The notes beneath the pieces were generated by a model. That model ran no database searches, was not told the DNA's origin, and worked only from the letters and a program-made list of their open reading frames with translations. Both the position numbers and the translations under genes were made by a program. Positions 5,397 to 19,517 of a stretch of 23,090 nt of DNA are shown in pieces; position 1 is the stretch's first letter; every line of letters starts with the position of its first letter. Source of the DNA: a virus; IMG/VR virus record IMGVR_UViG_3300006810_000412, positions 1 to 23,090 of that record; one strand, 5' to 3'.

Positions 5397-5473
5397 TATA
5401 AACATTTGCCACAATAATCGTTGCGTTGATGTTATTTTAATAGTTAAACAGTTGTTCTGTGTATAAAACTATA

Positions 5474-5487
5474 GGTGGGTGGGTGGG
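5474..5487 (+). other. G-quadruplex motif GGTGGGTGGGTGGG
   Basis: One GG and three GGG runs separated by single T bases, followed directly by TTTT, in a very AT-rich intergenic region. Single-base loops are the classic strong parallel G4 form; with a short first run it may form two tetrads or a vacancy-containing three-tetrad fold. It lies 78 bases after the stop of the gene ending at 5396, on the coding strand. Confidence 0.7.
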
Positions 5488-5752
5488 TTTTGCTAATTAG
5501 CTAGTTGTTTTAACAACAATAAGTAGTAAGAAAGAAAAAAAAATAACTATTGCGTATTGATTTTATGTTTAACTACATAAGAGTTATATAATATCTACTA
5601 GTCTATAAACTATAGTTTTAGTACTATTTTAAGTACTATAAATGTTTAAGTTATTGATAATCAAGTAGTTATGTAGAATTATGTGGTTTAAGTATGTTTT
5701 ATTATAATTTCATTTATTTAAGTGATTAATTTATGACTTCAAAGTTATACAA

Positions 5753-5760
5753 TAATTTTG
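5753..5760 (+). promoter_or_regulatory. Candidate -7 box TAATTTTG
   Basis: Matches TAnnTTTG about 100 bases upstream of the gene at 5857. No TTG is present 17-23 bases upstream, and the local sequence is so AT-rich that a chance match is quite possible. If used, the transcript would include the whole tandem-hairpin leader. Confidence 0.3.
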
Positions 5761-5801
5761 ATAAAGTCAAGTCATGTTTAAAACTTTGTTCAATTAAGTG
5801 T

Positions 5802-5833
5802 GCCGACACATTTCGGTAGGGCATTCATTTGCC
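5802..5833 (+). promoter_or_regulatory. Tandem-hairpin 5' leader element, copy A
   Basis: Hairpin 1: GCCGA (5802-5806), loop CACATT, TCGGT (5813-5817). Hairpin 2: GGCA (5820-5823), loop TTCATT (5824-5829), TGCC (5830-5833). It ends 23 bases before the ATG at 5857. A second copy before the gene at 7082 has the same architecture, the same second loop, compensatory stem changes and the same 23-base spacing, which supports a conserved RNA structure. Confidence 0.65.
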
Positions 5834-5856
5834 TGCAAACTCTCAAAAAAAAAGAG

Positions 5857-6246
5857 ATGAGAGATTTAAAAATCGTTGCAAAATATGCAACAACAACAGA
5901 TTTAAGTACAAGTAACTATTACACAACTGCCTTAGACAAACCTAAGACAAGTTATGATGTGATGAGTTTCAAACCTACGTTGGAGTACAAGATTAAAGAT
6001 ATTGCTAGTCGTATCAATAATATGACTAATCTTAAAGTGTATGAAACTAATGTAGAAACAGGTGTTACTAAGCGTACTAAACTATTAATACAAAAAGCAG
6101 TAATCAAACCTTGTAAGAAGGCATTAGAAATAATAGCTGTCAAAAGCTATAAGCCTGGTGCTAGAACAATGACATTCCATTTAAATGATAAGAATGTTGT
6201 TGACTATGTTAATGTAATGTCTAACCAAGTAATATTAAAATACTAA
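5857..6246 (+). CDS. Unknown early protein behind structured leader
   Basis: A 129-residue basic protein, starting MRDLKIVAKYATTTDLSTSN. It looks beta-rich in its first half and has a Lys-rich core (GVTKRTKLLIQKAVIKPCKK). No family is recognised. The start at 5857 is chosen because an in-frame upstream GTG at 5800 would place coding sequence inside the tandem-hairpin element. A TCTC-A9-GAGA hairpin reaches the A of the start codon and may influence initiation. Its stop overlaps the next start (TAATG). Confidence 0.75.
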   Translation: MRDLKIVAKYATTTDLSTSNYYTTALDKPKTSYDVMSFKPTLEYKIKDIASRINNMTNLKVYETNVETGVTKRTKLLIQKAVIKPCKKALEIIAVKSYKPGARTMTFHLNDKNVVDYVNVMSNQVILKY

Positions 6247-6662
6247 TGAGTATATTAGATAAGAACCTTGAGCTACGCGATGCGTTAGCAAAGGTAGATT
6301 GGTTAACAGCAGATATAGTTAAGCTAAAAGAAGAAATTTCTGAACTTAAATTGCGTAACGAAAAATTACGTGAAATATGTATATCTCTGGAATTAATCAT
6401 AGATGAATTAGACGAGCAGATAAAGTCTTTTATAAATAAAGTTGAATCTAATAAATATAATACTAACGTGAAAAGAAACGAAAAAAAAGAATTAATAGAA
6501 GATAGAGATTGGTATGAAGCATTGTATTGGTCTAGAATTGATGCGTTCAATAAACTAGTAGATGCTTGGAAAGCACATGATCGTGATTGGGAGATGATTG
6601 ATAAAATTGCTATGAATATTTATATTAAAACAAAGCCAGAGTATGACAAATGTAAAAAATGA
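6246..6662 (+). CDS. Coiled-coil protein, unknown function
   Basis: A 138-residue protein with a long heptad-patterned segment at about residues 15-65 (VKLKEEISELKLRNEKLREI and onward), which predicts a coiled coil. The C-terminal part is Trp-rich (DWYEALYW, DAWKAHDRDWEM). No enzyme motif is seen. It is translationally coupled to the preceding gene by one shared base (TAATG) and overlaps the next gene by 20 bases. It may be a scaffold or oligomeric host-interaction protein; that is inference. Confidence 0.75.
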   Translation: MSILDKNLELRDALAKVDWLTADIVKLKEEISELKLRNEKLREICISLELIIDELDEQIKSFINKVESNKYNTNVKRNEKKELIEDRDWYEALYWSRIDAFNKLVDAWKAHDRDWEMIDKIAMNIYIKTKPEYDKCKK

Positions 6663-6978
6663 AATAGTAAAACTATTGACTAATGCTAATATACCGCTAA
6701 AGGATATACAAGCTGCTAGTATAACTTACTCCAAAGATATAATACCTGAAAGTGAATATCATTGGATAATGTTATATCCTGGTCATACTGATAAAGAGTT
6801 TGATCAATGGTTATCTAAAATGAATGAAATAAATTATTACGCAGGATATGGTGCCCAACAACTCTTTGGTACTATATGGCTAAAAAATGGTTTATGGATT
6901 ACAAGAGGTGAGTACGATGGTAGTGAATGGTGGGACTTACACAAAAGACCACCATTACCAAAAAGAAATAAGTCATGA
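6643..6978 (+). CDS. Hypothetical protein
   Basis: A 111-residue protein starting MTNVKNEIVKLLTNANIPLK. The middle carries aromatic-rich motifs (YHWIMLYPGHTDKEFDQWL and GTIWLKNGLWITRGEYDGSE) resembling a small domain seen in phage early regions, but no family is named with confidence. It overlaps the preceding gene by 20 bases. A 103-base gap with the second tandem-hairpin leader follows. Confidence 0.75.
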   Translation: MTNVKNEIVKLLTNANIPLKDIQAASITYSKDIIPESEYHWIMLYPGHTDKEFDQWLSKMNEINYYAGYGAQQLFGTIWLKNGLWITRGEYDGSEWWDLHKRPPLPKRNKS

Positions 6979-7027
6979 AACATATTCTTAAATATTAATA
7001 GTGAGCACACACTTTAAAGCAACAGCT

Positions 7028-7058
7028 AGCGACTGATTTCGTTAGGTATTCATTTACC
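7028..7058 (+). promoter_or_regulatory. Tandem-hairpin 5' leader element, copy B
   Basis: Hairpin 1: AGCGA (7028-7032), loop CTGATT, TCGTT (7039-7043). Hairpin 2: GGTA (7045-7048), loop TTCATT (7049-7054), TACC (7055-7058). It ends 23 bases before the ATG at 7082. Compared with copy A, hairpin 2 changes a C-G pair to T-A, and hairpin 1 changes G-T to A-T and C-G to G-T, so pairing is kept. An ACTTT occurs 18-20 bases before hairpin 1 in both copies. The rest of the 6979-7081 gap shows nothing clear. Confidence 0.65.
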
Positions 7059-7081
7059 GAAACGCCAATAAAAATAAAACA

Positions 7082-7477
7082 ATGGCATTAGTAATTTCAA
7101 ACAAGAATTTTGTAGCAGATGCAGTATTAGCACACAACATGAACAAGTGCATACCACACTACAGAAAAGAACAAAATTTAGTAATCATCATACCTAACGG
7201 CAAGGTTGTAGAACAAGCGCCCGAAGGTTATAAAATGAAAAAAGTAAGTTACAGATTTAAAAACCTGGAGCTTAACTGCATGATACTAGAAAAGTATTTT
7301 AAAACATACGAAGAGTATGCTATAGAAAAACAACTATGGGATACACATTTAGAATACAGTTTTGGTACAATAGAAAACTATTTCAATAAAAAATCTAACA
7401 AGAAAAATGAGATAGTTAAATACTTAACAAAACAAAAGTTTAACAACAATAATTTTAGAATCGGTAAATTAAAATAG
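7082..7477 (+). CDS. Unknown early protein behind structured leader
   Basis: A 131-residue basic protein starting MALVISNKNFVADAVLAHNM, with a C-terminal Lys/Asn-rich tail (KFNNNNFRIGKLK). No family is recognised and it shows no clear sequence likeness to the other hairpin-led gene at 5857, so the shared leader probably reflects shared control rather than gene duplication. The next gene starts two bases after its stop. Confidence 0.75.
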   Translation: MALVISNKNFVADAVLAHNMNKCIPHYRKEQNLVIIIPNGKVVEQAPEGYKMKKVSYRFKNLELNCMILEKYFKTYEEYAIEKQLWDTHLEYSFGTIENYFNKKSNKKNEIVKYLTKQKFNNNNFRIGKLK

Positions 7478-7478
7478 T

Positions 7479-7766
7479 ATGAAATTTAAATTAGAAAACA
7501 TCAAAGTAAACGCAGCAGAAGAAGTACAGTTCGAACTAGGTAAACTAGAAGTAGAGTACTCAATAGAAGAGATGGTGGAAATGCACCAAACATTCAAAGA
7601 AGTGCTGCAACAAATAAACGAGTACGTAAATGCATCTTATAATGTAGAAGAAAAAGATGATTGTAAAACTAGTAACTCTAATGAAACACAAATGCAAGAT
7701 TTATTTGACAGTTTTGCAAAAATTTATAGTGATGATAAAGATAAAGAGACTACAGAGCATAATTAA
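7479..7766 (+). CDS. Small acidic protein, unknown function
   Basis: A 95-residue acidic protein starting MKFKLENIKVNAAEEVQFEL. The first half looks like a small domain with an amphipathic helix (EEMVEMHQTFKEVLQQINEY); the C-terminal 35 residues are acidic and probably disordered. It follows the 131-residue gene after one base and overlaps the next small ORF. No family is recognised. Confidence 0.7.
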   Translation: MKFKLENIKVNAAEEVQFELGKLEVEYSIEEMVEMHQTFKEVLQQINEYVNASYNVEEKDDCKTSNSNETQMQDLFDSFAKIYSDDKDKETTEHN

Positions 7767-7878
7767 AAAGGTCAAAAGTCCAAAAAATCAAACAATAAAT
7801 AAACTAAAACAAAAAGAAGATAAATTGTTTGAAGAGTTGTATGCTAACATATCCTATAGAAATGGATTTGTTAATTAA
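7732..7878 (+). CDS. Small Lys-rich protein
   Basis: A 48-residue very basic protein starting MIKIKRLQSIIKKVKSPKN. The frame is open upstream to 7657, but that would overlap the acidic neighbour by 110 bases; the ATG at 7732 leaves a 35-base overlap and is preferred. It ends 12 bases before the next gene. No family is recognised; the evidence is position and open frame only. Confidence 0.5.
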   Translation: MIKIKRLQSIIKKVKSPKNQTINKLKQKEDKLFEELYANISYRNGFVN

Positions 7879-7890
7879 AACAAAAAAAGA

Positions 7891-8199
7891 ATGACTTTAA
7901 TACTAGCTTTTTGTATTGCTGGTGTTTACATCTATACATTGTGTGACATATATGGTAATGATTGGGATAAAATACGTAAGTATGGTGTCTATTGGGACAT
8001 AAGCTTAACAATAATTTTGCCAATTATAACTAGTGCATCACAATTTATGATGAGCAGCGGCTTTATAGCAGGATTTATATTCTCTACTTATAGACGCAAA
8101 GTATTAAGTAAAAGAGGACTAAAAAAAGAAAATAAAGAACCAAAGAAAAAAAGAAAGACACGCAGAGAGCGTGCGTTAGAACAATATTATAATAATTAA
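7891..8199 (+). CDS. Membrane protein with basic cytoplasmic tail
   Basis: A 102-residue protein. A hydrophobic N-terminal segment (about 2-20, TLILAFCIAGVYIYTLCDIY) and a second long hydrophobic region (about 36-66) predict two, perhaps three, membrane segments. The last 35 residues are extremely Lys/Arg-rich (KKENKEPKKKRKTRRERAL) and would stay in the cytoplasm. It could be an early inner-membrane protein such as an exclusion factor; a holin is less likely at this early position, but that is not excluded. No family is recognised. Confidence 0.7.
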   Translation: MTLILAFCIAGVYIYTLCDIYGNDWDKIRKYGVYWDISLTIILPIITSASQFMMSSGFIAGFIFSTYRRKVLSKRGLKKENKEPKKKRKTRRERALEQYYNN

Positions 8200-8201
8200 T
8201 T

Positions 8202-8807
8202 ATGGGATTTGATTTGCACGGTTTAAAACCTCAAGAAAACACAAAAAAACCAGAGATACTAATTAAACATCAATCTGGGTGGCTAATAAAAGATGAAGCC
8301 ATACAAAAAGAATGGTATAATGCATACGAAGAATGGGAGTTAGAAAACCCAGGCGTATACTTTAGAAATAATGTTTGGTGGTGGCGACCACTATGGATGT
8401 ATGTATGCAGTTCTTGTCAAGATATATTAACAGAAAAAGATATGACAAAAGGCACATACAATGATGGGCATAAAATATCTAAAACTAAATCTAAAAAGAT
8501 TGCTGCTAGATTAAGAAAGCTAATAAAGGATTTAGATGTAAAAATATATGCTGCACATTATGAAGAGAAAAGACAAAAAACTGTTGATCATAACAAAAAG
8601 ATAGAAGTTTTAATTGACGTATTAAAAGAAAGAGTCAAAGAACAACATGGCGATATAGTGCCAAGAGATTATCCCGAACCACATAAAACTGATTGGGATA
8701 ACTTACAAGCCAAAAAAAAATGGGAAGGCAACTATCCATTTGACGAAAAAAATGTAAAAGAATTTGCAGAATTTTGTGAACAATCAGGTGGATTTTTAAT
8801 TTATTAA
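8202..8807 (+). CDS. Conserved phage hypothetical with MGFDLxG...YFRNNVWWWRPLW motif
   Basis: A 201-residue protein. The opening MGFDLHGLKPQ and the block GVYFRNNVWWWRPLWMYV (about residues 48-65) form a signature I recall from hypothetical proteins of phages and bacteria; their function is unknown. A CSSC pair follows at about 66-69. The C-terminal part (EHGD-like to the end, about 145-201) has the pattern of an acidic, Trp-containing tail. No catalytic motif is seen. It starts three bases after the membrane protein's stop. Confidence 0.75.
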   Translation: MGFDLHGLKPQENTKKPEILIKHQSGWLIKDEAIQKEWYNAYEEWELENPGVYFRNNVWWWRPLWMYVCSSCQDILTEKDMTKGTYNDGHKISKTKSKKIAARLRKLIKDLDVKIYAAHYEEKRQKTVDHNKKIEVLIDVLKERVKEQHGDIVPRDYPEPHKTDWDNLQAKKKWEGNYPFDEKNVKEFAEFCEQSGGFLIY

Positions 8808-8809
8808 TT

Positions 8810-8971
8810 ATGTATATAACAACAAAAAACGTAGAATTATTAAAAGAAGCTTTAGAAAAAGCTAAATCAAAAAACAAAAAAGAATTTAAATTTCAAGGTG
8901 AAGTATTTAATGTCAAATATGCTGAATATTTAGTAGATTGGTTAACAAATATGGTAACAATTAAAAGTTAA
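8810..8971 (+). CDS. Small hypothetical protein
   Basis: A 53-residue protein starting MYITTKNVELLKEALEKAKS and ending VTIKS. The predicted helix at the start and a short beta pair (EFKFQGEVFNVKYAEY) resemble a small soluble domain. The ATTAATTATG start context matches neighbouring genes, and it fills the gap between the genes ending at 8807 and starting at 8978, which supports it as real. Confidence 0.65.
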   Translation: MYITTKNVELLKEALEKAKSKNKKEFKFQGEVFNVKYAEYLVDWLTNMVTIKS

Positions 8972-8977
8972 TGAGCT

Positions 8978-9268
8978 ATGACTTATGATAAGTGGAAACT
9001 ATCTAACCCGCAAGACGACGGACATACCTCTGATGAGGTTACAAGCTGTTGTGGCGTGGAGCAAGAAGGAAGCGGAGCAAGTAATTGCTGTGACTCTAGA
9101 TTCTGGGGACATACAGATATTTGTAACGAGTGCAAAGAACACGCAGACGAATATATGATATGCACAGAATGCGAAGAAGACGATTCACAATATGAAATGA
9201 TTAGTGAATACGAATACAATGAACGCAGAAAAGATGATGCACAAGAATATAACAAAGATGAAGATTAA
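8978..9268 (+). CDS. Small zinc-ribbon-like protein
   Basis: A 96-residue acidic, Cys-rich protein. Cys pairs occur as SCCG, NCCDSRFWGHTDICNEC and CTEC. The CC...DICxEC spacing is like small phage proteins with a predicted zinc ribbon. The C-terminal 30 residues are Glu/Asp/Tyr-rich and probably disordered. The likely role is protein or nucleic-acid binding through zinc, but no partner can be named. The minus-strand open frame here is a shadow. Confidence 0.75.
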   Translation: MTYDKWKLSNPQDDGHTSDEVTSCCGVEQEGSGASNCCDSRFWGHTDICNECKEHADEYMICTECEEDDSQYEMISEYEYNERRKDDAQEYNKDED

Positions 9269-9500
9269 AGTTAACAAAAATGCACAACGTAGAAAGCTAA
9301 TAGACACAGCTAACACAGTAGTTATGATGGCTGAAGATTGTGCACTTAGAGGATTAGAAAAATTCAATTATGAGTATCCAAAAGGATATGGTTTTGATGC
9401 ACAGCAATTAATAAACCAAGTTGAATATCAAACCCAAAACACCGTCTATGCAGGATATAAATCTGTAAACAACGGTATAATTAAATTCAAAATAGGATGA
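9258..9500 (+). CDS. Hypothetical protein
   Basis: An 80-residue protein from ATG 9258, starting MKIKVNKNAQRRKLIDTANT. The upstream in-frame start at 9204 would add an 18-residue Met/Asn-rich stretch inside the acidic tail of the zinc-ribbon gene and is less likely. The N-terminus is basic and helical; the second half (YEYPKGYGFDAQQLINQVEY) looks like a small alpha/beta domain. No family is recognised. It overlaps both neighbours by a few bases. Confidence 0.65.
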   Translation: MKIKVNKNAQRRKLIDTANTVVMMAEDCALRGLEKFNYEYPKGYGFDAQQLINQVEYQTQNTVYAGYKSVNNGIIKFKIG

Positions 9501-9799
9501 AAATAAAAGAAATCAGCGTAAGCTACTCAGAATCAGTCAATACTGGTAATTTTGAAAACGTAAAATGGAACATTACTAAAGTTGCAGAAATACAAGAAGG
9601 TGATGACGAATCAAAAGTTACAGAAGAATTAACAAACAATGTCTATAAGACTGTTAAAAATCTTGTAAACTTTACAAAATTAAAAAAGATAACTATGTCT
9701 TCTGCGCCTAACAAAAAAGGTGTAGTTAAAAAAGTTAATGTAAACGACGTAGAAGATTACGAATTAGAAAACAGAAAACATGAAAACAAAATTTCTTAG
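9497..9799 (+). CDS. Conserved small phage protein, unknown function
   Basis: A 100-residue protein. The opening KIKEISVSYSESVNTGNFEN followed by VKWNITKVAEIQEGDDE resembles a small conserved family in phages and archaea with a 'xxSxTxNLGNYExxxxE' pattern; function is unknown and the assignment is from memory. It ends with a charged tail. The ATGA overlap with the upstream gene supports coupling. The downstream exported protein starts 20 bases before its stop. Confidence 0.7.
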   Translation: MKIKEISVSYSESVNTGNFENVKWNITKVAEIQEGDDESKVTEELTNNVYKTVKNLVNFTKLKKITMSSAPNKKGVVKKVNVNDVEDYELENRKHENKIS

Positions 9800-10145
9800 T
9801 TTATTATTTTTAATAACAACACAGCTATATGCACAAGAACAATCCATTGTAGTGGGTGGAGATAGGAATCCTGCTTTTGTTAACGATGTTAGAGTGACAA
9901 AATGGTTCAACACAAAACATTTAAGTTATGAATTACCACCAGATATTAAAACTGTTTTAGTTATTGGTGACCATGGTTATTATGGTGATACAGTAAAAAC
10001 ATACAGAACATTAGAGTGGTATAGAAAAGATGGCGAACACTATAAAAACATGGTTCATACTAACAATAACATGCATATCTATCATTTTGTTCCTACTATA
10101 ATAGATTCAATTTATGTTTCAGAAGTTATAATTAAATATGAATAG
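9780..10145 (+). CDS. Exported (periplasmic) protein with signal peptide
   Basis: A 121-residue protein. The first 19 residues form a clear type I signal peptide: MKTK, a hydrophobic core FLSLLFLITT, and cleavage after YAQ. The mature part of about 102 residues looks beta-rich (SIVVGGDRNPAFVNDVRVTK; TVLVIGDHGYYGDTVK) and has no Cys. No family is recognised. An exported protein inside an early operon of cytoplasmic genes may act on the envelope, for example in superinfection exclusion; that is inference. There is no lipobox. Confidence 0.75.
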   Translation: MKTKFLSLLFLITTQLYAQEQSIVVGGDRNPAFVNDVRVTKWFNTKHLSYELPPDIKTVLVIGDHGYYGDTVKTYRTLEWYRKDGEHYKNMVHTNNNMHIYHFVPTIIDSIYVSEVIIKYE

Positions 10146-10452
10146 TAATAAAAAAACAACTAGCTTAAAAATAAAAGTAATGAACATTTTACTTGAAGAT
10201 CCTGTTTATAGAGACGACGATCAAAGATTGGTAGCTCGTATAATATGGGAATCTATGCACAAAAAAGATATAACAGCTAAAGAGCTGTTGCAAGACATGT
10301 TCATACACAAAAAACATCCTAAACCTAAATCAATAGAAAGATGTAGCAGATTATTGCAAGAAAAATATCCAGGACTACGAGGTAGTAACTGGGTTAAAAG
10401 ACAACAGAAAGCTGAACAAGCAAAAATTAATGAAATACCAAGATTAGTATAA
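10138..10452 (+). CDS. Conserved phage hypothetical (SIERCSRLLQEKYPGLRG type)
   Basis: A 104-residue basic protein. The block KPKSIERCSRLLQEKYPGLR followed by GSNWVKRQQ is a motif I recall from small phage proteins of unknown function, sometimes beside replication genes. The N-terminal part (MNILLEDPVYRDDDQRLVAR) looks helical and the whole could be a winged-helix-like DNA-binding domain, which is inference. It overlaps the exported-protein gene by 8 bases and shares one base with the peptidase start (TAATG). Confidence 0.7.
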   Translation: MNSNKKTTSLKIKVMNILLEDPVYRDDDQRLVARIIWESMHKKDITAKELLQDMFIHKKHPKPKSIERCSRLLQEKYPGLRGSNWVKRQQKAEQAKINEIPRLV

Positions 10453-11735
10453 TGGAAGTAAAAATTAAATTAGAAGATGTACTAGCAGTACAAAGTGTAA
10501 GTTACCAAGAAGATCAAATGATAGAATACATACAAAGCGTATTAAAATCTATGCCTAATGTAAGTTTTGTCACAGAAAGTGTTAAAGTTGGTAAAAATAC
10601 TATACAAAATATTTATGCAACAAAACAAATGCCAAGCGGCGTTGCATTACACTATCCTTGCTTTGTTTCACACACAGACACAGTACATAACATATTAGAT
10701 AATTTTAAAATATGTAAAACTAAAACTGAAGACGACACATTGTTTTATGGTATGACAAAATACAAACACTACAAACTAGGATGTGATATTACAGAAACAG
10801 CAGGTTGTGGTGGCGACGACAAAGTAGGCGTGTGGGCTTGTCTAAATCTATTAAACGAGCTAGACTATGCTAAAGTAGCATTCTTTGCTGCAGAGGAGGT
10901 AGGTACAGTAGGTAGTGGCGTAGCAGATATGACATTCTTTGAAGACGCTGCATTTGTATTGCAAACAGACAGAAAAGGTAACGATGACTTTGTAACTAAA
11001 ATTGGATTAGTAGAACTATCTGGCAATGAATTTCAAAACAATATTGCACACTTGCTCACTAAACGTGGATTTAAATTACAACCTAACGGCGGACTTACAG
11101 ACGTTAAAGAATTAAAATCAAGCGATAAAGGCCCGAACGTAGCTATGGCTAATATATCATCAGGCTATTACAGTCCACACACAGACGACGAGTATGTGAG
11201 CTATAAAGATGCATTAAACACATTAAACTTAATGTACGACATAGCAATACATGTTGGAGGAATAAAGCAAGAACATACTTATGAAAAAAGCTACAACACC
11301 TACAACGGATACAACACTTACACAGGTGTTCAAGGCTACAACAAGTGGGGTGGAAATTTTACAAGGGACGCAAATCCAAAAAATATGGCAGACAAACAAA
11401 ATTCAAGTTCTAAATGCTCAGAATGTGGTGAAGAATTAACAAAATACCAAAATCACAAACTATGTTTAAATATGCATTGTACTAAAAGCAATGTATATAC
11501 TAATTATATAGATGATGGATTTTATTATGAAGATGCACCAATACTATACCCTGTATATAAAAAAGAAGTTTATGAAATATATAATTTGTTAGAAGAAAAT
11601 CCTATAGCCTATTATAACGACGTAAACAAAAGCTTGTACACAAAACCATTTAAAATTGTAGACACAAAAAAACAGAAAGATTCAGAAGATTTAAAAAGTC
11701 TAGATGATTATTTAGACTCAAAAGTACCATTTTAA
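10452..11735 (+). CDS. M20-type (peptidase T-like) metallopeptidase with zinc ribbon
   Basis: The protein has 427 residues. Metal ligands typical of M20 exopeptidases are present: H74/D76 in SHTDT, D122 in CGGDDKVG (compare GADDKAG of peptidase T), E148/E149 in AAEEVG, D173 in QTDRKG and H243 in SPHTDD. The catalytic domain covers about residues 1-270. A Tyr/Asn/Gly-rich linker (about 277-302) leads to a four-Cys ribbon, C322-x2-C325 and C338-x4-C343. The last residues, SLDDYLDSKVPF, resemble the acidic tail of single-stranded DNA-binding proteins. The substrate is unknown: peptides, or another amide substrate. An intracellular M20 enzyme next to helicase and recombination genes is unusual. 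Confidence 0.8.
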   Translation: MEVKIKLEDVLAVQSVSYQEDQMIEYIQSVLKSMPNVSFVTESVKVGKNTIQNIYATKQMPSGVALHYPCFVSHTDTVHNILDNFKICKTKTEDDTLFYGMTKYKHYKLGCDITETAGCGGDDKVGVWACLNLLNELDYAKVAFFAAEEVGTVGSGVADMTFFEDAAFVLQTDRKGNDDFVTKIGLVELSGNEFQNNIAHLLTKRGFKLQPNGGLTDVKELKSSDKGPNVAMANISSGYYSPHTDDEYVSYKDALNTLNLMYDIAIHVGGIKQEHTYEKSYNTYNGYNTYTGVQGYNKWGGNFTRDANPKNMADKQNSSSKCSECGEELTKYQNHKLCLNMHCTKSNVYTNYIDDGFYYEDAPILYPVYKKEVYEIYNLLEENPIAYYNDVNKSLYTKPFKIVDTKKQKDSEDLKSLDDYLDSKVPF

Positions 11736-11747
11736 TAATTAAACAAC

Positions 11748-13154
11748 ATGATACAAATAGTTAAAATAAAAGACGAGTATATACAAGAAGATACATCTAA
11801 TAAGTATATTGATGTGCAAAAATTGCACGAAGCAACATATAATCCTAATATACATTTTTCCAAGTTGTCACATGTGAGAACAATGCAAGAATTGTATTAT
11901 TCATCTGAAAATTTATTCTACATTATAGAATATACTATAGATGGATTTATATTGCTACCTGTAAATTACACAACAAAACATCTTTATTTTATACATACAA
12001 ATAGATCGTCTTGTATAATACCAGAAGAAATGTTTGATAAAGTTGAAGAAATTGAAGTTCCATATGGTCTATACGAAATATATAATTTCAAAAATCTATT
12101 TAAATTATCTCAAAATCTAAAAGATAAAATAAAATCTATACCACACAATAACATACACGATATGTTAAATGATTTTGAAAAAGGTATAATGGACAATTTA
12201 GACAGAAACGAAAAAGATTGGCCTGTAATGATTGATATTGCAATAGATGATAAAAGTAAAATTTCGTATTGGACTATAAGAAAGATTAAAAACCTATTAA
12301 AAAGCGATGATAATGGTTACACTACATATTTTGATAGAAATTTAAGCCTTACAGAAAATTTAAGAAATCCTGAGCTTCGTAAGAAAAAAGCTATAATGTC
12401 TACTTTTGGTAGAGTATTTAACAAATTATTTCATTATGGAACTTATACAGCCAGGCAACTAGAAGAGTTTGAGTCTTTGTTTCTGATACATAATCTAGAC
12501 AAAATAGGTTATTTTGAAATTACAAGTGACATACATCATGCTTACGATAGTGATAACTATAATGAATCAAATGGTAATGGCACTTTAGGTCAATCGTGTA
12601 TGCGTCACGAAGAAAATCAAAGGTTATTAGATTTTTACAAATCATTAGGTAAAGATGTAGTACAATGTTTAGTGTTATATAACAATGACGATTTAATAAT
12701 AGGCAGGGCTTTGTTATGGAATAAATGTTATAACAGAAGGCGTAAAACACATTTTGTAGTTATGGATCGTGTGTATACAGAATACAATGCTTTAGAAATA
12801 TTTTTCCATGTATATGCTAAAGAAAATGGTTATATTCGCAAAAAACTAAACTCTTACAGAAACAATACATTAATACAACCTAACGGTAAAGGCGGTATAG
12901 GCGCATGTTATGTAAAATTTGATCCAAAAAATCTTGAAAACAGAGAAGATATGAGTGTACCATATGTTCCTTGGCTAGATACATTTAAATTTGCAGATTT
13001 TGACAAGGGTTATCTGACAACTCATAAAAATCTAGGCGGCAACAAAGTATGTCAAAATACACACGGCTCTGTAGGACATGTATATGGATTAAATGAAGAA
13101 ACCTACGAAGTAAAAATGAATGAATTAAATAGTATTCACAATCAAAAAATATAA
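11748..13154 (+). CDS. Large conserved phage protein, unknown function
   Basis: A 468-residue protein with no recognised enzyme family. Residues about 280-325 hold GTLGQSCMRHEENQRLLDFY, then VVQCLVLYNNDDLIIGRALLW. An 'SCMR...GRALLW' signature recurs, as I recall, in hypothetical proteins of marine and other phages. The invariant-looking Cys and Arg could be catalytic, but this is speculation. Other possible conserved spots are HFVVMDRVYTEYNALE and the C-terminal GNKVCQNTHGSVGHVYG. It lies between the peptidase and DnaB in one operon. It has no signal peptide or membrane segment. Confidence 0.8.
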   Translation: MIQIVKIKDEYIQEDTSNKYIDVQKLHEATYNPNIHFSKLSHVRTMQELYYSSENLFYIIEYTIDGFILLPVNYTTKHLYFIHTNRSSCIIPEEMFDKVEEIEVPYGLYEIYNFKNLFKLSQNLKDKIKSIPHNNIHDMLNDFEKGIMDNLDRNEKDWPVMIDIAIDDKSKISYWTIRKIKNLLKSDDNGYTTYFDRNLSLTENLRNPELRKKKAIMSTFGRVFNKLFHYGTYTARQLEEFESLFLIHNLDKIGYFEITSDIHHAYDSDNYNESNGNGTLGQSCMRHEENQRLLDFYKSLGKDVVQCLVLYNNDDLIIGRALLWNKCYNRRRKTHFVVMDRVYTEYNALEIFFHVYAKENGYIRKKLNSYRNNTLIQPNGKGGIGACYVKFDPKNLENREDMSVPYVPWLDTFKFADFDKGYLTTHKNLGGNKVCQNTHGSVGHVYGLNEETYEVKMNELNSIHNQKI

Positions 13155-13159
13155 AATTT

Positions 13160-14443
13160 ATGTATTATGAGCTAGAAAACATAATATTAGGTAATATAAT
13201 AGTAGACACTAAATTGTATCACCAAAACGCACAGTTGTTTAATATACATATGTTTGATGATCCAAGCAATATATTAATATACAAAGCGTTTACAAAAATT
13301 ATAAAAAAAGGCAAAGAACCAGACATTGTAAACATAGGCAAAGAATTAGGTACTAAAAGTAAATTATCAGTAAAAGTTGTACAATTAACTAGTACATCTA
13401 CACTTATGCCAAGAGAGTTTGACTCAGCATTACAAAGTTTGGTTGAATCGTCTAAAAGAAAAATAGTAAATGAATATTTACAAGAAATCAATAACCATGT
13501 ACAAAATCAATCTGACATAGCTGTTATTAGCGACAAGATTAATGATTTACAAAACAGGTTAGTTGATAACCACGAGGATAAAGATAAAACTCTTATAAAA
13601 CAATTGGTAGAATTTACTGAAGACCTTGCTGTTAAAATTAATACAGAAGGTATAACAGGAATTACCACAGGCTTTAAATCTCTTGATGATTTTACGAATG
13701 GATGGCAATCCACTGACTTAATTATAGTCGGTGGTGCGTCATCTATGGGTAAAACGAGTTTTGCTGTAACAACTGCATTTAATGCAGCTAGAGCTAAAAA
13801 TCCTATTGCAATATTCAGTTACGAAATGTCATCTATACAACTACTACAAAGAATGGTTAGCATTCAGTCTGGCGTAAGCAGTCATTGGCTTAGAAAAGGC
13901 GCATTAGATGAACAAGAAATTAAAAAAGTTAATAAAGCTGTCGGTTACATAGAAAATTTACCGTTAATAATAGATGACTGTAATAATACAGATTTAAGCT
14001 ATTTATTATCAAAAATTAAACAGTACGTGCACACTAACAAAATCAAACTTGTACTTGTAGATTACTTACAATTAGTTACCTGCAAAAGGTCAAGTCGTGA
14101 GCAAGAGGTTAGTGCAGTAGCACGTGCATTAAAAAATCTAGCTAAAGAATTAGATATAGCTATTATAGCATTGTCACAACTTAATCGTGGCGTAAGCTTT
14201 AGAGCAGATTCTAAACCTACAATGTCAGATCTACGTGAGTCAGGCGAGATAGAACAAGCTGCAGATATTGTAGCTCTAATATACAGGCCTGAATATTATG
14301 GTTTGCACGAAGATGAGACAGGTAACCCAACAAAAGGACTTGCAAAGGTAATCTTTGCTAAAGGACGTAACATTGGTGTAGGAGAGATAAATCTAAGATT
14401 TGTAGCTGAACAAACTAAATTTGAAGATTATGAAAATATTTAG
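13160..14443 (+). CDS. dnaB: Replicative DNA helicase, DnaB family
   Basis: The protein has 427 residues, close to phage DnaB lengths. A helical N-terminal domain (about 1-100) is followed by a linker and the RecA-like domain (about 160-420). The Walker A motif is GGASSMGKTS (191-200), Walker B LVLVDYLQL with D301, motif H4 ALSQLNRG (337-344), then DLRESGEIEQAAD, and KGRNIGVG near 401-408 carrying the probable arginine finger. It unwinds DNA as a hexamer at the replication fork. No loader or primase is seen nearby, so it may use host DnaC-like/primase functions or ones encoded elsewhere in the phage. A small membrane-protein ORF overlaps its end. Confidence 0.97.
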   Translation: MYYELENIILGNIIVDTKLYHQNAQLFNIHMFDDPSNILIYKAFTKIIKKGKEPDIVNIGKELGTKSKLSVKVVQLTSTSTLMPREFDSALQSLVESSKRKIVNEYLQEINNHVQNQSDIAVISDKINDLQNRLVDNHEDKDKTLIKQLVEFTEDLAVKINTEGITGITTGFKSLDDFTNGWQSTDLIIVGGASSMGKTSFAVTTAFNAARAKNPIAIFSYEMSSIQLLQRMVSIQSGVSSHWLRKGALDEQEIKKVNKAVGYIENLPLIIDDCNNTDLSYLLSKIKQYVHTNKIKLVLVDYLQLVTCKRSSREQEVSAVARALKNLAKELDIAIIALSQLNRGVSFRADSKPTMSDLRESGEIEQAADIVALIYRPEYYGLHEDETGNPTKGLAKVIFAKGRNIGVGEINLRFVAEQTKFEDYENI

Positions 14444-14570
14444 CATTTTATTGTATTGCGTTATAGGCGTAATAACAACAACAACCTTGGTATTTTTATT
14501 TCCTATTTTAGGTATGTGTCTAGTAGGATATGTAGTATATAAAACTGCAAAAATCTTGTTCAATTGGTAA
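14430..14570 (+). CDS. Small single-span membrane protein
   Basis: A 46-residue protein starting MKIFSILLYCVIGVITTTTL, with a hydrophobic stretch over about residues 4-37 and a Lys-containing C-terminus ending ILFNW. It overlaps the end of dnaB by 14 bases in another frame and fills the space before the next gene. It is too short for strong proof; the open frame, composition and operon fit support it. Function is unknown. Confidence 0.55.
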   Translation: MKIFSILLYCVIGVITTTTLVFLFPILGMCLVGYVVYKTAKILFNW

Positions 14571-14600
14571 AAATTTCGTATTTTTAAATACTATTTTACA

Positions 14601-14831
14601 ATGAAAAACAAGTCAAAATTAGATAAAATATATGAAGAAATTGCATATGACACAGGCATAAAAAAGTCTGTAGTACAAAATGTAATAAAAAGTTTGTTTG
14701 TAAAAATAGGTGCAAGTTTAATACAAAACACACCTGTGATGATACGTAAATATATAAAAATTGTAAAAGCATCACGACAGACAAAATCAACCCAAAAAAA
14801 TTATAATGATTATGAAACAAGAAGCAATTAA
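14601..14831 (+). CDS. HU/IHF-like small DNA-binding protein (tentative)
   Basis: A 76-residue basic protein. The pattern YEEIAYDTGIKKSVVQNVIK, then SLFVKIGASLI and PVMIRKYIKI, follows the helix-turn-helix, helix and beta-arm start of HU-family proteins ('IA..tGl.k..v..vl....e.i...l....V.I..f'). The usual GFG beta-arm core is replaced and the protein is short, so it may be a divergent or truncated HU-like protein. It sits between dnaB and the Rad52-type gene, where a DNA architectural protein would fit. Confidence 0.55.
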   Translation: MKNKSKLDKIYEEIAYDTGIKKSVVQNVIKSLFVKIGASLIQNTPVMIRKYIKIVKASRQTKSTQKNYNDYETRSN

Positions 14832-15288
14832 TTTAAAAGATTTGCAAAAAGAACTGCCATACAAATGGAGAGTACAATCTTCTAGATATGGTAAAGCGAA
14901 CTGCGTAGCATATATAGATGCACGTGACGCACAAGATTTGTTAGATGATGTAGTAGGGCCAGGCAATTGGTCTACAGAATACTACGACGCTAATGGACTT
15001 TTAATGTGTAGAGTAGGTATACTTGTCAATGGACATTGGGTATGGAAATCAGACACAGGCTCTGAATCTAATGTAGAAAAAGACAAAGGACATGCATCTG
15101 ATGCATTTAAACGTGCTTGTGTATCTTGGGGTATAGGTAGATTCTTATACAGACTAGACATACAAACATTACAAACCAAAGACTATAAGGGTAAAGAATA
15201 TCCTTATGCACCTGAAAAAGATAAAATTATTTTTGATGGTGACACACTAACTAAATATATAAATTGGAAAGTAAAAAATGGAAAGTAA
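14812..15288 (+). CDS. Rad52-family single-strand annealing protein
   Basis: A 158-residue protein from ATG 14812; an ATG two codons earlier at 14806 is also possible. Motifs of the Rad52/Rad22 annealase family are present in order: LPYKWRVQ, YIDARDAQDLLDDVVGPGNW, GHWVWKSDTGSES, KGHASDAFKRACVSWGIGRF and LYRLD. Such phage proteins form rings that anneal complementary single strands in recombination-dependent replication and repair. It overlaps the HU-like gene by 20 bases and the next gene by 11. With the SSB-like protein and RusA downstream it makes a recombination module. The motif order leaves little doubt. Confidence 0.9.
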   Translation: MKQEAINLKDLQKELPYKWRVQSSRYGKANCVAYIDARDAQDLLDDVVGPGNWSTEYYDANGLLMCRVGILVNGHWVWKSDTGSESNVEKDKGHASDAFKRACVSWGIGRFLYRLDIQTLQTKDYKGKEYPYAPEKDKIIFDGDTLTKYINWKVKNGK

Positions 15289-15499
15289 AACATTATTAGA
15301 CATAGCAGCTTTAGAAGCTACATATGCCTACACTAATCAGAATTATACTGACGAGTTAACAAACGAGATTATGGACTATCTAAGACATAAATTAGATATA
15401 AATCAAAACTCTGATAAAGATGACGTTATTTATAGTCAAATATGGATGATGATCACATTACATAACAATAAAATCAAAAACACTTTAAACAAAAATTAA
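15278..15499 (+). CDS. Small hypothetical protein in recombination module
   Basis: A 73-residue, largely helical acidic protein starting MESKTLLDIAALEATYAYTN. No family is recognised. It overlaps the annealase gene by 11 bases and is followed after one base by the SSB-like gene, so it is probably co-translated with them. It could be an accessory factor, but nothing in the sequence shows it. Confidence 0.7.
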   Translation: MESKTLLDIAALEATYAYTNQNYTDELTNEIMDYLRHKLDINQNSDKDDVIYSQIWMMITLHNNKIKNTLNKN

Positions 15500-15500
15500 T

Positions 15501-16082
15501 ATGTCAAATTGGAATTTAAACGAGGTAAGCACCTCACAAAAAACAGAAAAAAAAGAGTACAAAAAAGTAGATTACTTAAGAACTCCTGGATCGTACACAT
15601 GTACAGTAAATGGACAACTCTCTGAAAAAGAAATGGAAGGCTATACAGGGTCACCATTCTTAGACTTTATTTTGTACACATCAGATGGTAAAAAAACTAA
15701 AGCTAGATTTTGGACACCAAAAGAAACTGACGCACCAAAAACTGCAGATTTTAAACGTAAACTACTAAAAGAGTTTATGATTAACTGTGGTGTAAAAGAC
15801 TTCACAAATATGTCTGATGCGTTAGATCAAGTAATTGGTAAAAGGCTACAAGTTTGTTTTACTACACAAGAGTACATTGGTACAGATAGAGAAACTAACG
15901 AACCTGTTGTAAGAACATCACTACAATATAAATTCTCTAAAAAAGTAGGAGAAACTATTAAGTATGATGCTAAATACAACAGAACGTTAAGTCCTGAGCA
16001 AACTATGCAATACAATGAGTTGCATAAATTGTGGTCTGAAACAAAAACAACTGTAGAAGACGACGACAACTTACCGTTTTAA
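15501..16082 (+). CDS. Single-stranded DNA-binding-like protein with acidic tail
   Basis: A 193-residue protein. The body (about 20-150) has the beta-rich spacing of an OB-fold or of phage DUF669-type SSB proteins: GSYTCTVNGQLSEKE, FLDFILYTSDGKKTKARFWT and RLQVCFTTQEYIG. The C-terminus ends VEDDDNLPF, the classic SSB tail that recruits partner proteins. It would coat single strands during DnaB-driven replication and hand them to the Rad52-type annealase. Similar genes often lie beside annealases in phages. The domain call rests on pattern and tail, not on alignment. Confidence 0.8.
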   Translation: MSNWNLNEVSTSQKTEKKEYKKVDYLRTPGSYTCTVNGQLSEKEMEGYTGSPFLDFILYTSDGKKTKARFWTPKETDAPKTADFKRKLLKEFMINCGVKDFTNMSDALDQVIGKRLQVCFTTQEYIGTDRETNEPVVRTSLQYKFSKKVGETIKYDAKYNRTLSPEQTMQYNELHKLWSETKTTVEDDDNLPF

Positions 16083-16092
16083 TTAAAAACCG

Positions 16093-16123
16093 TATATTTG
16101 GGGACTCAACATCCCTAAATATA
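16093..16123 (+). promoter_or_regulatory. Promoter box inside a 12-bp dyad before rusA
   Basis: TATATTTGGGGA (16093-16104), loop CTCAACA, TCCCTAAATATA (16112-16123) form a 12-bp stem with a single G-T pair. The first eight bases, TATATTTG, match the -7 box TAnnTTTG, and the right arm ends on the A of the ATG at 16123. Transcription from this box would start just after the left arm, giving a very short leader. No TTG -33 element is seen. It could be an operator; in read-through RNA it would sequester the start codon. Confidence 0.5.
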
Positions 16124-16485
16124 TGGAAATATTCATACCAGGTAATGTACCTTCATCTAAAAACTCAAAAAGATGGACAGGTAAAATGCTAATCAATTCA
16201 AAAACTGTTATGAATTATATAAAAAAAACACAAGCAGACTATCTTATAAATAAACCCAAGTTTAAAAAAATGATAGAAAACAAGGAATTTCCTGTGACTG
16301 TATCGTTTACGTTTATAAGAGGTAGTCGACATAAGTTTGATTATATAAATCCAGCACAAACCGTACAAGATTTAATGGTTAAAAATCATTGGATAGAAGA
16401 CGATAACGCAGAATTTATTATACCGCATTTTGAGCAATACAGTTATGACAAAGAGAACCCTGGTGTTATAATAAAAATTATATGA
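16123..16485 (+). CDS. rusA: RusA-family Holliday junction resolvase
   Basis: A 120-residue protein, the usual RusA length. The opening MEIFIPGNVPSSKNSKRW and the block SRHKFDYINPAQTVQDLMVK followed by NHWIEDDNAEFI carry the conserved acidic residues (D73, D83, D93/D94) that bind magnesium in this dimeric nuclease; the end NPGVIIKII is also typical. It cuts four-way junctions made by annealing or recombination. It begins 40 bases after the SSB-like gene, behind its own promoter/dyad, and overlaps the next gene by four bases. Confidence 0.9.
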   Translation: MEIFIPGNVPSSKNSKRWTGKMLINSKTVMNYIKKTQADYLINKPKFKKMIENKEFPVTVSFTFIRGSRHKFDYINPAQTVQDLMVKNHWIEDDNAEFIIPHFEQYSYDKENPGVIIKII

Positions 16486-16934
16486 TAAAAGAATTTATTG
16501 ATACTTATCTAGACCATTATAATATGGATAAAGATTTGTTTATGTCTAGCAAAAGGACTAGAGACTTAGTTGATCACAGAATGATAATATGTACTGTACT
16601 TAGAAAGAACGGTCCATATACATATTCTGAGATTGGTAAAGCTATCAACAGAGATCACGCAAGTGTTATACATCATAATAAAAATTACGATACTTTATCT
16701 TATATACCTGAAATAGAAAAACTTTATTACGCAGGTATAAGTATTTATAATATGATAGATAACAATCCAAAAAGTAACGATTCTCTAGAGTTAGTAAATA
16801 CATTTATGTATTCTAATAAAACGCTTAGAAAAAAATTAATTGATAAAACTAAAAAATTAAAAAATATTGTTGAAGAACACAAAACTTTAAAAAGAAATTA
16901 CTTAATTTTAAAATCTCAAATTAAAACACATTAA
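16482..16934 (+). CDS. DnaA domain IV-like DNA-binding protein
   Basis: A 150-residue protein. Residues about 22-70 (KRTRDLVDHRMIICTVLRKN, then YTYSEIGKAINRDHASVIHH) follow the DnaA C-terminal duplex-binding domain, including the signature IGxxxxRDHxxVxHH. There is no AAA+ ATPase domain. Residues about 115-148 are Lys-rich with heptad spacing, so a coiled coil is likely. It could bind phage DNA, perhaps at an origin, or compete for host DnaA boxes; both are inference. It overlaps rusA by four bases (ATGATAAAA context). Confidence 0.8.
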   Translation: MIKEFIDTYLDHYNMDKDLFMSSKRTRDLVDHRMIICTVLRKNGPYTYSEIGKAINRDHASVIHHNKNYDTLSYIPEIEKLYYAGISIYNMIDNNPKSNDSLELVNTFMYSNKTLRKKLIDKTKKLKNIVEEHKTLKRNYLILKSQIKTH

Positions 16935-16935
16935 T

Positions 16936-17250
16936 ATGGCAAAAAACAAGAAAAAAACAGATGAAGGAACAGTAGAAGTAACTATTGACGGAGTAAAAAT
17001 TACAATACCACTATTGGTTAAAAGACTACTAGAAGATCAAAGAAAATCTATACATTATTATAATCACGTACTAGCATTATGGATGTACAAAAGTTATGAT
17101 GAGAATAGTGACAAATCTATTGATCACGAAATAGCTAGTTTTATTAACGAAAGTATACCAGAAATCAAAGAAATGATAGAGCATTTTAAAGAACAAGATG
17201 CTAAACAAGAAAATAATTTAGAGGTTGTAGAAGATACAGACATTAATTAG
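16936..17250 (+). CDS. Hypothetical protein
   Basis: A 104-residue protein with a Lys-rich start (MAKNKKKTDEG), a short beta segment (TVEVTIDGVKITIPLLVKRL), then helices and an acidic tail (NNLEVVEDTDIN). No family is recognised. It starts one base after the DnaA-like gene's stop and is the last gene before a leader with its own promoter at 17251. Confidence 0.7.
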   Translation: MAKNKKKTDEGTVEVTIDGVKITIPLLVKRLLEDQRKSIHYYNHVLALWMYKSYDENSDKSIDHEIASFINESIPEIKEMIEHFKEQDAKQENNLEVVEDTDIN

Positions 17251-17258
17251 TATCTTTG
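17225..17258 (+). promoter_or_regulatory. Bacteroidetes-type promoter TTG-N23-TATCTTTG
   Basis: TTG (17225-17227), 23 bases, TATCTTTG (17251-17258). This fits the flavobacterial consensus TTG-N17-23-TAnnTTTG and is the best promoter match in the window. The -7 box lies one base after the stop codon of the preceding gene. The transcript would begin near 17263-17265 and carry a leader of about 93 bases with two hairpins before the gene at 17357. Confidence 0.65.
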
Positions 17259-17271
17259 TACATCTTTCTGA

Positions 17272-17345
17272 CTGAACTTTCCATGTTCAGATTTCATTGT
17301 TTTTTTGATTGGTTGTTCCCAGGGCTTGTTAAAGCAGGCCTTGGG
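17272..17345 (+). promoter_or_regulatory. Two-hairpin leader, possible attenuator
   Basis: Hairpin 1 is CTGAAC (17272-17277), loop TTTCCAT, GTTCAG (17285-17290), followed nine bases later by seven T (17300-17306). Hairpin 2 is CCCAGGGCTTG (17318-17328), loop TTAAAG, CAGGCCTTGGG (17335-17345), an 11-bp stem with two G-T pairs, ending 11 bases before the ATG at 17357. The first with its T run could act as a weak terminator; the second could limit or shape ribosome access. Confidence 0.5.
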
Positions 17346-17359
17346 CGTATACTATTATG
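17344..17359 (+). promoter_or_regulatory. Start-site motif GGC-N4-ACTATT-ATG, copy 3
   Basis: GGC (17344-17346), four bases, ACTATT (17351-17356), ATG at 17357. The GG belongs to the 3' arm of the adjacent 11-bp hairpin. Same pattern and spacing as at 4475 and 4820. Confidence 0.55.
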
Positions 17360-17611
17360 GAACTAGACGACATTTTTTCGGACAACAAAGAACCTATAGA
17401 ACAACCTATAGAATGGTGGCAAGAAGACAAAATAGATCAAATTATAGAACTTTGTCCTTACCCACAATGGATGGTTGATGATATAATAAATAATAAACCA
17501 TCTACAAAAAACGAAGCAAATATTTTATTAAACAAACTGTGGTTTGATCACATACCCAGAGATCCTAAGGATCAGTTATTAAAAATGCTTCATCTAAATA
17601 CTTTAATATGA
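17357..17611 (+). CDS. Small acidic hypothetical protein
   Basis: An 84-residue acidic protein starting MELDDIFSDNKEPIEQPIEW, with a Trp-rich middle (WWQEDKIDQIIELCPYPQWM). No family is recognised. It is the first gene behind the promoter at 17251 and its structured leader, and shares the ACTATTATG start context. It overlaps the next gene by four bases. Confidence 0.7.
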   Translation: MELDDIFSDNKEPIEQPIEWWQEDKIDQIIELCPYPQWMVDDIINNKPSTKNEANILLNKLWFDHIPRDPKDQLLKMLHLNTLI

Positions 17612-17850
17612 AAAGAGATGAGCAAGTAGATATTATATTTATAATTATCTTATTTAGAGCTTTTCACGAAATGCTATACAGCATGAAAGGTAGGCATAGT
17701 AAAGTTACAAAACAAAAATTTAATAGATTAGTAAAAGTCGCAAGACAATACGAAAAGGACATAAATAAATGGGTAGAAAACTCAAAAGAAGTAGAAGAAA
17801 TCTACGATCAATTTATGGACTTATTAATAGAAGCTAAAAAAGAAATTTAA
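17608..17850 (+). CDS. Small basic helical protein
   Basis: An 80-residue protein starting MKRDEQVDIIFIIILFRAFH. The hydrophobic patch at residues 8-16 is short and interrupted by charges, so it is probably a buried helix and not a membrane span. The remainder is amphipathic helix with many Lys and Glu. The ATGA overlap with the upstream gene supports it. Function is unknown. Confidence 0.7.
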   Translation: MKRDEQVDIIFIIILFRAFHEMLYSMKGRHSKVTKQKFNRLVKVARQYEKDINKWVENSKEVEEIYDQFMDLLIEAKKEI

Positions 17851-17851
17851 A

Positions 17852-18244
17852 ATGAGTAAAACAACAATAGTATTTGAAGGAGGCGTAGACAATATACGCA
17901 CTTTAGCAGACAACAGCCTAAGAGTATCTTTAGGTACACCAGAACTATCACCACAAACTGTAGGTGATTTATATAGCGTATTAAAACAACCTGGATTTGT
18001 AGTATTATCAACACAACCTATAACGCAAAAGCAAATAGATGCAGTAGAATCTGCAAGTATTGATATGGAGTTTGATACAAAAACACCAGCACAAAGATTG
18101 CGTAATGTTTTATACAGAATATGGGAACAAACATCACCTAAAGACAAAAACTCAGAAGGTATAACAGAGTATGTAGATTTTGATTTATTCTACAAACGTA
18201 AAATGAACGAATTAATTAACCACTTTAAAACTAAATTAGGATGA
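17852..18244 (+). CDS. Conserved phage hypothetical (recombination-region type)
   Basis: A 130-residue protein. A first block, FEGGVDNIRTLADNSLRVSL then GTPELSPQTVGDLY, and a second, KTPAQRLRNVLYRIWEQ, resemble a widespread phage family ('TLRDGTLRLTLDTxEL.P' and 'KSPSQRLRAVLFxLWQQ') that often sits beside recombination genes. Its function is not known to me. It follows the 80-residue gene after one base and has an ATGA overlap with the HTH gene. Confidence 0.75.
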   Translation: MSKTTIVFEGGVDNIRTLADNSLRVSLGTPELSPQTVGDLYSVLKQPGFVVLSTQPITQKQIDAVESASIDMEFDTKTPAQRLRNVLYRIWEQTSPKDKNSEGITEYVDFDLFYKRKMNELINHFKTKLG

Positions 18245-18408
18245 ATTACAACAGTATCACAAAAAAATACACTAAAATTAAAAACATCAATATTGTATTA
18301 AGAGCTTTTTACGCCAAATTATTATACAAGCTAGGTGTTAGTGTAAAAGAAATTGCATTTAGATTTGAATTATCTGAAAGCAGAATATACCAATATTTAA
18401 AAAAATGA
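18241..18408 (+). CDS. Small helix-turn-helix protein
   Basis: A 55-residue basic protein starting MNYNSITKKYTKIKNINIVL. The C-terminal part, LGVSVKEIAFRFELSESRIY then QYLKK, is a textbook helix-turn-helix of the sigma region 4/resolvase type. It is joined to both neighbours by ATGA overlaps, which supports expression. It may be a transcription regulator or a recruiter for the repair enzyme gene that follows; this is inference. Confidence 0.7.
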   Translation: MNYNSITKKYTKIKNINIVLRAFYAKLLYKLGVSVKEIAFRFELSESRIYQYLKK

Positions 18409-19259: not shown

Positions 19260-19263
19260 AACA

Positions 19264-19515
19264 ATGAAAGAAGAAAAATCAAAATTACTAGAAGAACTGT
19301 TAGAGCTTTCTACTGCAATAGTTCAAGAAAGAAACAAATCAAAAAACTTATACGATCAAGTTATATTCGAAACAGCTGATGTTTACTATTGGCTGCACAG
19401 GTACATAGAAAGTTTACCTGCTATGGATAGAGAGGTGATAACTAACAGAGTCAGAACTAAAGAAAAAGTCAACAATAAAATAATACAAGTTGACTATGAA
19501 TCAATTAAATTTTAA
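19264..19515 (+). CDS. MazG-like nucleotide pyrophosphohydrolase
   Basis: An 83-residue protein. The helix KLLEELLELSTAIVQERNKS and then VIFETADVYYWLHRYI give the all-alpha NTP-pyrophosphatase motif EExxE (E10, E11, E14) plus ExxD (E36, D39). The end contains RTKEKVNNKI, similar to the Lys/Asn motif of the fold. Phage members are thought to trim dNTPs or host alarmone pools. It follows the radical SAM gene by four bases and precedes a DUF1599-like gene, suggesting a nucleotide-pool unit. Confidence 0.75.
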   Translation: MKEEKSKLLEELLELSTAIVQERNKSKNLYDQVIFETADVYYWLHRYIESLPAMDREVITNRVRTKEKVNNKIIQVDYESIKF

Positions 19516-19517
19516 TT

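Follow-up and report, generated by a model that had tools for sequence, protein, structure and literature searches.

A predicted pseudoknot and hairpin element lies at a near-constant distance from the start codons of two unrelated genes in a group of phages: a candidate translational control RNA

Why do two genes of one phage, starting at 5857 and 7082, carry the same arrangement of hairpins upstream of their start codons? The DNA analysed here (the window) is the complete 23,090-nt IMG/VR record IMGVR_UViG_3300006810_000412, apparently a fragment from an uncultured phage. A preliminary description of its sequence reported tandem hairpins before both genes, and we found these exactly at the positions given. 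The two leaders and their genes comprise the following features:

5796-5863: leader 1
5798..5800, + strand: leader 1, 5' strand (GUG) of pseudoknot helix S1, with its partner CAC at 5807-5809 in the loop of hairpin 1
5801..5818, + strand: leader 1, hairpin 1, which is also pseudoknot helix S2 (UGCCGA and UCGGUA around the loop CACAUU); supported by covariation and the minimum free energy (MFE) fold
5820..5833, + strand: leader 1, hairpin 2 (GGCA and UGCC around the loop UUCAUU); supported by covariation
5840..5863, + strand: leader 1, start-codon hairpin H3 (CUCUCA and UGAGAG around an A-rich 12-nt loop); 6 bp, -4.7 kcal/mol
5857..6246, + strand: open reading frame, 129-aa gene, the first of a long rightward (early-type) run
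7000-7086: leader 2
7000..7060, + strand: leader 2, ultraconserved block, identical at 58-60 of 60 positions in ten contigs
7000-7013, + strand: leader 2, possible upstream hairpin H0 (AGUG and CACU around the loop AGCACA); predicted fold
7023..7025, + strand: leader 2, 5' strand (CAG) of pseudoknot helix S1, with its partner CUG at 7033-7035; supported by covariation relative to leader 1
7027..7044, + strand: leader 2, hairpin 1, which is also pseudoknot helix S2 (UAGCGA and UCGUUA around the loop CUGAUU); supported by covariation
7045..7058, + strand: leader 2, hairpin 2 (GGUA and UACC around the loop UUCAUU); supported by covariation
7064..7086, + strand: leader 2, start-codon hairpin H3 (GCCA and UGGC around a 15-nt A-rich loop); weaker support than H3 of leader 1
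7082..7477, + strand: open reading frame, 131-aa gene under leader 2, with homologues behind leader 2 in related phages

When 2.9 million viral contigs in IMG/VR were scanned for the pattern, leader 2 was recovered from nine further contigs; leader 1 is present in five other contigs (L004, L011, L012, L007, and L008). Further copies in related phages, which the preliminary description had proposed as a test of its idea, therefore exist for both leaders. The contigs that bear them share synteny with the window, and helicase identity goes down to 58%. Neither relaxing the pattern nor anchoring it on the 5' part of leader 2 brought in any additional members. The pattern matches in L005 and L010 are GC-rich and were judged to be chance, as was a match in L238 (E 0.06-0.1; E-values from the covariance model are rough), and every match added by looser patterns (L239-L247, for example) is unrelated and due to chance. 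Copies were sought in IMG/VR and in 396 sampled Bacteroidota genomes. Among 117 loose-pattern matches in bacterial genomes, none had both hairpins, and no convincing copy of a leader was found in the 396 Bacteroidota genomes, where the best match (L256) sits within a coding sequence. Rfam returned zero matches at or above the gathering score for the whole window; in the region 5397-7100 it gave only sub-threshold matches, all outside the leaders and implausible. No close relatives of the tested window proteins were found among isolated phages.

We scanned the aligned leaders exhaustively for pairs of columns that form helices of at least 3 bp paired in all sequences. Exactly three helices show two-sided changes: hairpin 1 (5 bp, one such pair), hairpin 2 (4 bp, two pairs), and S1 (3 bp, two pairs). 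S1 joins the triplet just 5' of hairpin 1 to the first three bases of the hairpin 1 loop, which makes hairpin 1 part of an H-type pseudoknot. Thus, the stem that had been described as a plain hairpin is present, but the helix that turns it into a pseudoknot had been missed. S1 is GUG/CAC in leader 1 and CAG/CUG in leader 2 and is paired in 100% of the 10 sequences. In hairpin 1, 98.3% of cells are paired, with one two-sided and one one-sided change, whereas hairpin 2 is 100% paired, its stems being GGCA/UGCC, GACA/UGUC, or GGUA/UACC. The loop of hairpin 2, reported as identical, is indeed UUCAUU in both window copies, but the family as a whole has UUCANU (TTCAAT in L012, TTCAGT in L007). Hairpins 1 and 2 are separated by only 0-1 nt. 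The loops that connect the pseudoknot helices are 1-2 nt and 3 nt (AUU) long, lengths that we judge to be sterically ordinary.

Over the ten aligned leaders, 12 of the 13 base pairs are intact throughout and 99.2% of all cells are paired; five pairs have two-sided changes. Seventeen two-sided cells were observed versus 6.6 expected, none of 500 shuffles matched the pairing or covariation score of the real alignment, and in slid controls the paired cells dropped to 26-49%. A helix with at least two two-sided pairs arose in 2.3% of 300 column shuffles; the real alignment has two such helices. These changes come from few independent lineages or events, mainly the split between leader 1 and leader 2, plus L007 and L012. 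G-U pairs occur at several positions on the sense strand; a DNA palindrome would not tolerate these, and they thus speak for RNA. The MFE fold includes hairpin 1 of leader 1, and leader 2 on its own does not fold with unusual energy (z about -1.3 to -1.5). Loop 2 was also considered as a partner of AGUGAG or of the AUG region, but such pairing is inconsistent across variants and was rejected.

The distance between the element and the gene is equally regular. In all 16 instances, 23 or 24 nt separate the end of hairpin 2 from AUG, with 24 nt in leader 1 of L007 and L008 and leader 2 of L006, and 23 nt otherwise; the value of 3 that our script returned for leader 2 of L006, L007, and L008 is due to a spurious ATG within GACATGCC. 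The 23 bases reported for the window are exact in both leaders. The reported architecture of two hairpins stands as far as it goes, but a third hairpin exists at the start codon. In this hairpin, H3, bases 3' of hairpin 2 pair over 4-6 bp with the UG of AUG and with codons 2-3, enclosing the A-rich initiation region in the loop. H3 of leader 1 is CUCUCA/UGAGAG in the window and L012 versus CAGUCA/UGACUG in L007, which adds two further compensatory pairs. At 6 bp it is the strongest start-codon pairing among the 40 window genes (p 0.006 versus shuffled upstream sequence). H3 of leader 2 is a 5-bp UGCCA/UGGCA stem in L002, L003, and L006 and GCCA/UGGC in the window, and one pair is lost in several phages; its 4 bp are GC-rich, though unremarkable in length (p 0.09 versus shuffled upstream sequence). 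Despite these differing sequences, the predicted stability of H3 is near-constant, at -3.7 to -4.8 kcal/mol. In L002, L033, and L034 other sequence replaces the pseudoknot of leader 1, which is thus dispensable there; even so, a small hairpin with its end 24 nt 5' of AUG is present, and CUCUCA/UGAGAG is kept. Codons 1-3 of the first gene (ATG AGA GAT, 5857-5865) are identical in proteins that are only 37-41% identical, consistent with a constraint imposed by H3 on the coding sequence.

Leader 2 is conserved well beyond its two hairpins, to which the preliminary description had confined it. A block of 60 nt that starts at 7000, running from AGTGAGCAC to the end of hairpin 2, can be folded as H0, then the pseudoknot region, then hairpin 2. 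Conservation ends abruptly at the start of the block, and the upstream flanks are mostly unalignable. Between the window and L007 the block is identical at 60 of 60 positions, compared with 42% for third codon positions of the helicase gene and 29-40%, by alignment, for the downstream protein. In L009 a G-C pair of H0 is changed to G-U. This conservation exceeds what pairing alone would need, which makes sequence-specific recognition of the block likely, and other constraints, at the level of DNA or antitermination, may add to it. An 11-codon leader peptide in leader 2 (GTG AGC ... TGA) is kept in all copies, yet it shows nearly no synonymous changes, which points to a constraint on nucleotides and argues against a peptide; leader 1 also has no counterpart.

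What do the two genes have in common? Their products, which had been described as lacking similarity, are unrelated at the profile level as well (hhalign probability 0.3%), and simple gene duplication, already doubted, is excluded on these grounds; duplication of the RNA element itself is likely. Neither protein has a family match in PHROG or Pfam. Homologues of the 5857 protein in L012, L033, and L034 are 35-41% identical, and those of the 7082 protein, beyond near-identical copies, 29-52%. The AlphaFold model of the 7082 protein (pLDDT 81) has no fold relative in a structure search, and the model of the 5857 protein is poor. The rightward run, from 5857 to 20371, contains small genes and replication genes (a DnaB-type helicase and a Rad52-like protein), and it is this gene content only that suggests the label "early". 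A Shine-Dalgarno-like motif precedes none of the 31 rightward genes, which are instead enriched for A at -12/-11 and -3. Initiation without Shine-Dalgarno sequences and with A-rich upstream positions has been reported for Flavobacterium (PMC6847099), and because the two patterns match, the host is probably a member of the Bacteroidota. The window also encodes, at 18405-19259, a radical SAM protein that resembles spore photoproduct lyase (Pfam SPL, E 1.7e-25), with copies of 69-82% identity in several relatives.

The DNA upstream of leader 1 has features of its own. A non-coding region of about 400-450 nt (5397-5800) is strongly conserved in L002, L012, L033, and L034 and includes an invariant ATAGGTGGGTGGGTGGGTTTT, which is G-quadruplex-like (GGTGGGTGGGTGGG at 5474-5487); the region is possibly an origin or promoter. 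The motif TCAAAGTTA-N20-CAAGT lies 5' of leader 1 (5739-5772) with invariant spacing and, in its stricter form, matches this phage group only among all IMG/VR viral contigs, a distribution and placement that may mark an early promoter. The same motif also precedes type III hammerheads (RF00008) in the first-gene leader of the same gene run in three distant relatives (L175, 3287-3341; L203, 2128-2182; L265, 917-971), which score 39.9-45.2 bits, just below the Rfam cut-off of 48.5 (E 5.8e-9 in a local search). The helicase of L175 is 47% identical to that of the window. Therefore, the equivalent leader position hosts different structured RNAs across lineages. Hammerheads adjoining phage genes are known in general (PMC3088659). 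Unlike these, leaders 1 and 2 lack the conserved hammerhead core (CUGAUGA...CGAAA) and have no Rfam match; a hammerhead reading of leader 2 (CUGAU ... GAAAC) was rejected, as GAAA is not conserved. In the next intergenic region of L265 (1372-1420), a stem-loop resembles the T-arm and acceptor end of a tRNA (GCAGGGTTCGATTCCCTGC...ACCA), although ARAGORN identified no tRNA there.

The preliminary proposal of a conserved RNA element that controls translation or stability is thus supported by the further copies and by covariation in all helices. We suggest that leaders 1 and 2 are paralogous copies of one cis-acting RNA element, in which a platform would be formed by a compact H-type pseudoknot, with 3 bp stacked on 5-6 bp, and the UUCANU-loop hairpin directly after it. 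This platform would end 23-24 nt 5' of AUG, barely beyond the stretch that an initiating 30S subunit is expected to cover, and the weak H3 of near-constant stability would enclose the A-rich initiation region within its loop. Either the ribosome or a protein of phage or host origin would recognise the platform and thereby alter access to H3, and initiation on the mRNAs of two early phage proteins would be tuned or switched without Shine-Dalgarno pairing. Translational control appears the most likely role because of the placement outside the 30S footprint, the constant spacing, and the near-constant stability of H3; we give a cis-acting translational control RNA composed of pseudoknot, hairpin 2, and H3, in a host without Shine-Dalgarno pairing, a probability of about 0.55. 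From the observed sequence, conservation, covariation, and spacing we infer that the leaders are transcribed, fold as drawn, act on translation, and have a ligand.

Two rival explanations are live, albeit each improbable. One is an RNA antiterminator like put of phage HK022, in which tandem stem-loops load on RNA polymerase, which then ignores terminators. Such an element would fit the adjacent hairpins, which stand at the start of the early run and recur at 7.0 kb, the very strong conservation of the leader 2 sequence, and the tandem stem-loops of put itself; a fixed 23-24 nt to AUG and an H3 are not expected of an antiterminator, and put is not known as a pseudoknot. No more probable is a role for the folded 5' end in protecting or defining the mRNA, through stability or processing, without regulation of initiation. 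The hammerheads at the equivalent leader in L175, L203, and L265, 3' of TCAAAGTTA-N20-CAAGT, suggest that formation of the 5' end may matter, but for stability alone a pseudoknot, conserved loops, and a constant distance to AUG would all be superfluous, and leaders 1 and 2 have no hammerhead core.

Function at the level of DNA, as an operator, an origin, or a recombination linker made of inverted repeats, is unlikely and ranks below both. The sharp borders of the leader 2 block, with upstream flanks that mostly cannot be aligned, and the roughly 450 nt of conserved DNA with a G-rich repeat 5' of leader 1 are what such an element might leave. Against it stand the restriction of G-U pairs to one strand, the two-sided changes within the pseudoknot, the fixed distance to ATG, and an orientation that is always sense and before a gene; the AUG distance, the start-codon pairing, and the strand-specific G-U pairs favour translation instead. 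That the hairpins are coincidental, in AT-rich intergenic DNA, is very improbable. Taken by itself, the window does show the hairpin-2 pattern at a near-chance frequency, with 3 matches at up to 2 mismatches versus 1.9 expected, but coincidence is contradicted by the nine further contigs and by covariation that no shuffle equalled. The deciding evidence for the element is therefore comparative; the window by itself would be weak.

How does the proposed translational control RNA compare with known phage leaders? The leader pseudoknot of gene 32 in T4, T2, and RB69 is the operator through which gp32 controls its own synthesis. It is an H-type pseudoknot 5' of an A/U-rich initiation region (PMC3014915). 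The covarying S1 and S2 likewise predict an H-type pseudoknot in a phage mRNA leader. Unlike in T4, two genes are involved here, neither product matches the single-strand binding protein or any other family, an extra conserved hairpin and a start-codon hairpin are present, the inferred host lacks Shine-Dalgarno pairing, and the element ends 23-24 nt 5' of AUG, whereas the T4 pseudoknot lies in a region about 67 nt upstream. In HK022, two early leaders of the phage each carry put, a pair of neighbouring stem-loops; the hairpins here are neighbours too, 0-1 nt apart. Put is not known to be a pseudoknot, and it differs further from the present element in the fixed AUG spacing and start-codon pairing found here. 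For the hairpin operator of T4 gene 43 no pseudoknot is reported, and its loop is UAAC rather than UUCANU. Mimicry of a type III antitoxin (ToxI-like) pseudoknot seems unlikely, given no tandem repeats and no Rfam match.

More tentatively, and with somewhat less than even odds, pseudoknot, UUCANU hairpin, and H3 at a fixed distance may constitute an undescribed RNA class that switches early-gene translation in phages of Bacteroidota without Shine-Dalgarno pairing, with hammerheads or other folds swapped into the same position in relatives. If so, this would be a second, unrelated leader pseudoknot in phages, in a phylum without Shine-Dalgarno pairing, and it would show how structure can set initiation in such hosts. 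The element is defined, at about 70 nt, and could be tested in Flavobacterium.

Elsewhere in the window, a 193-aa protein encoded at 15501-16082 ends in VEDDDNLPF, an acidic tip that resembles those of single-strand binding proteins.
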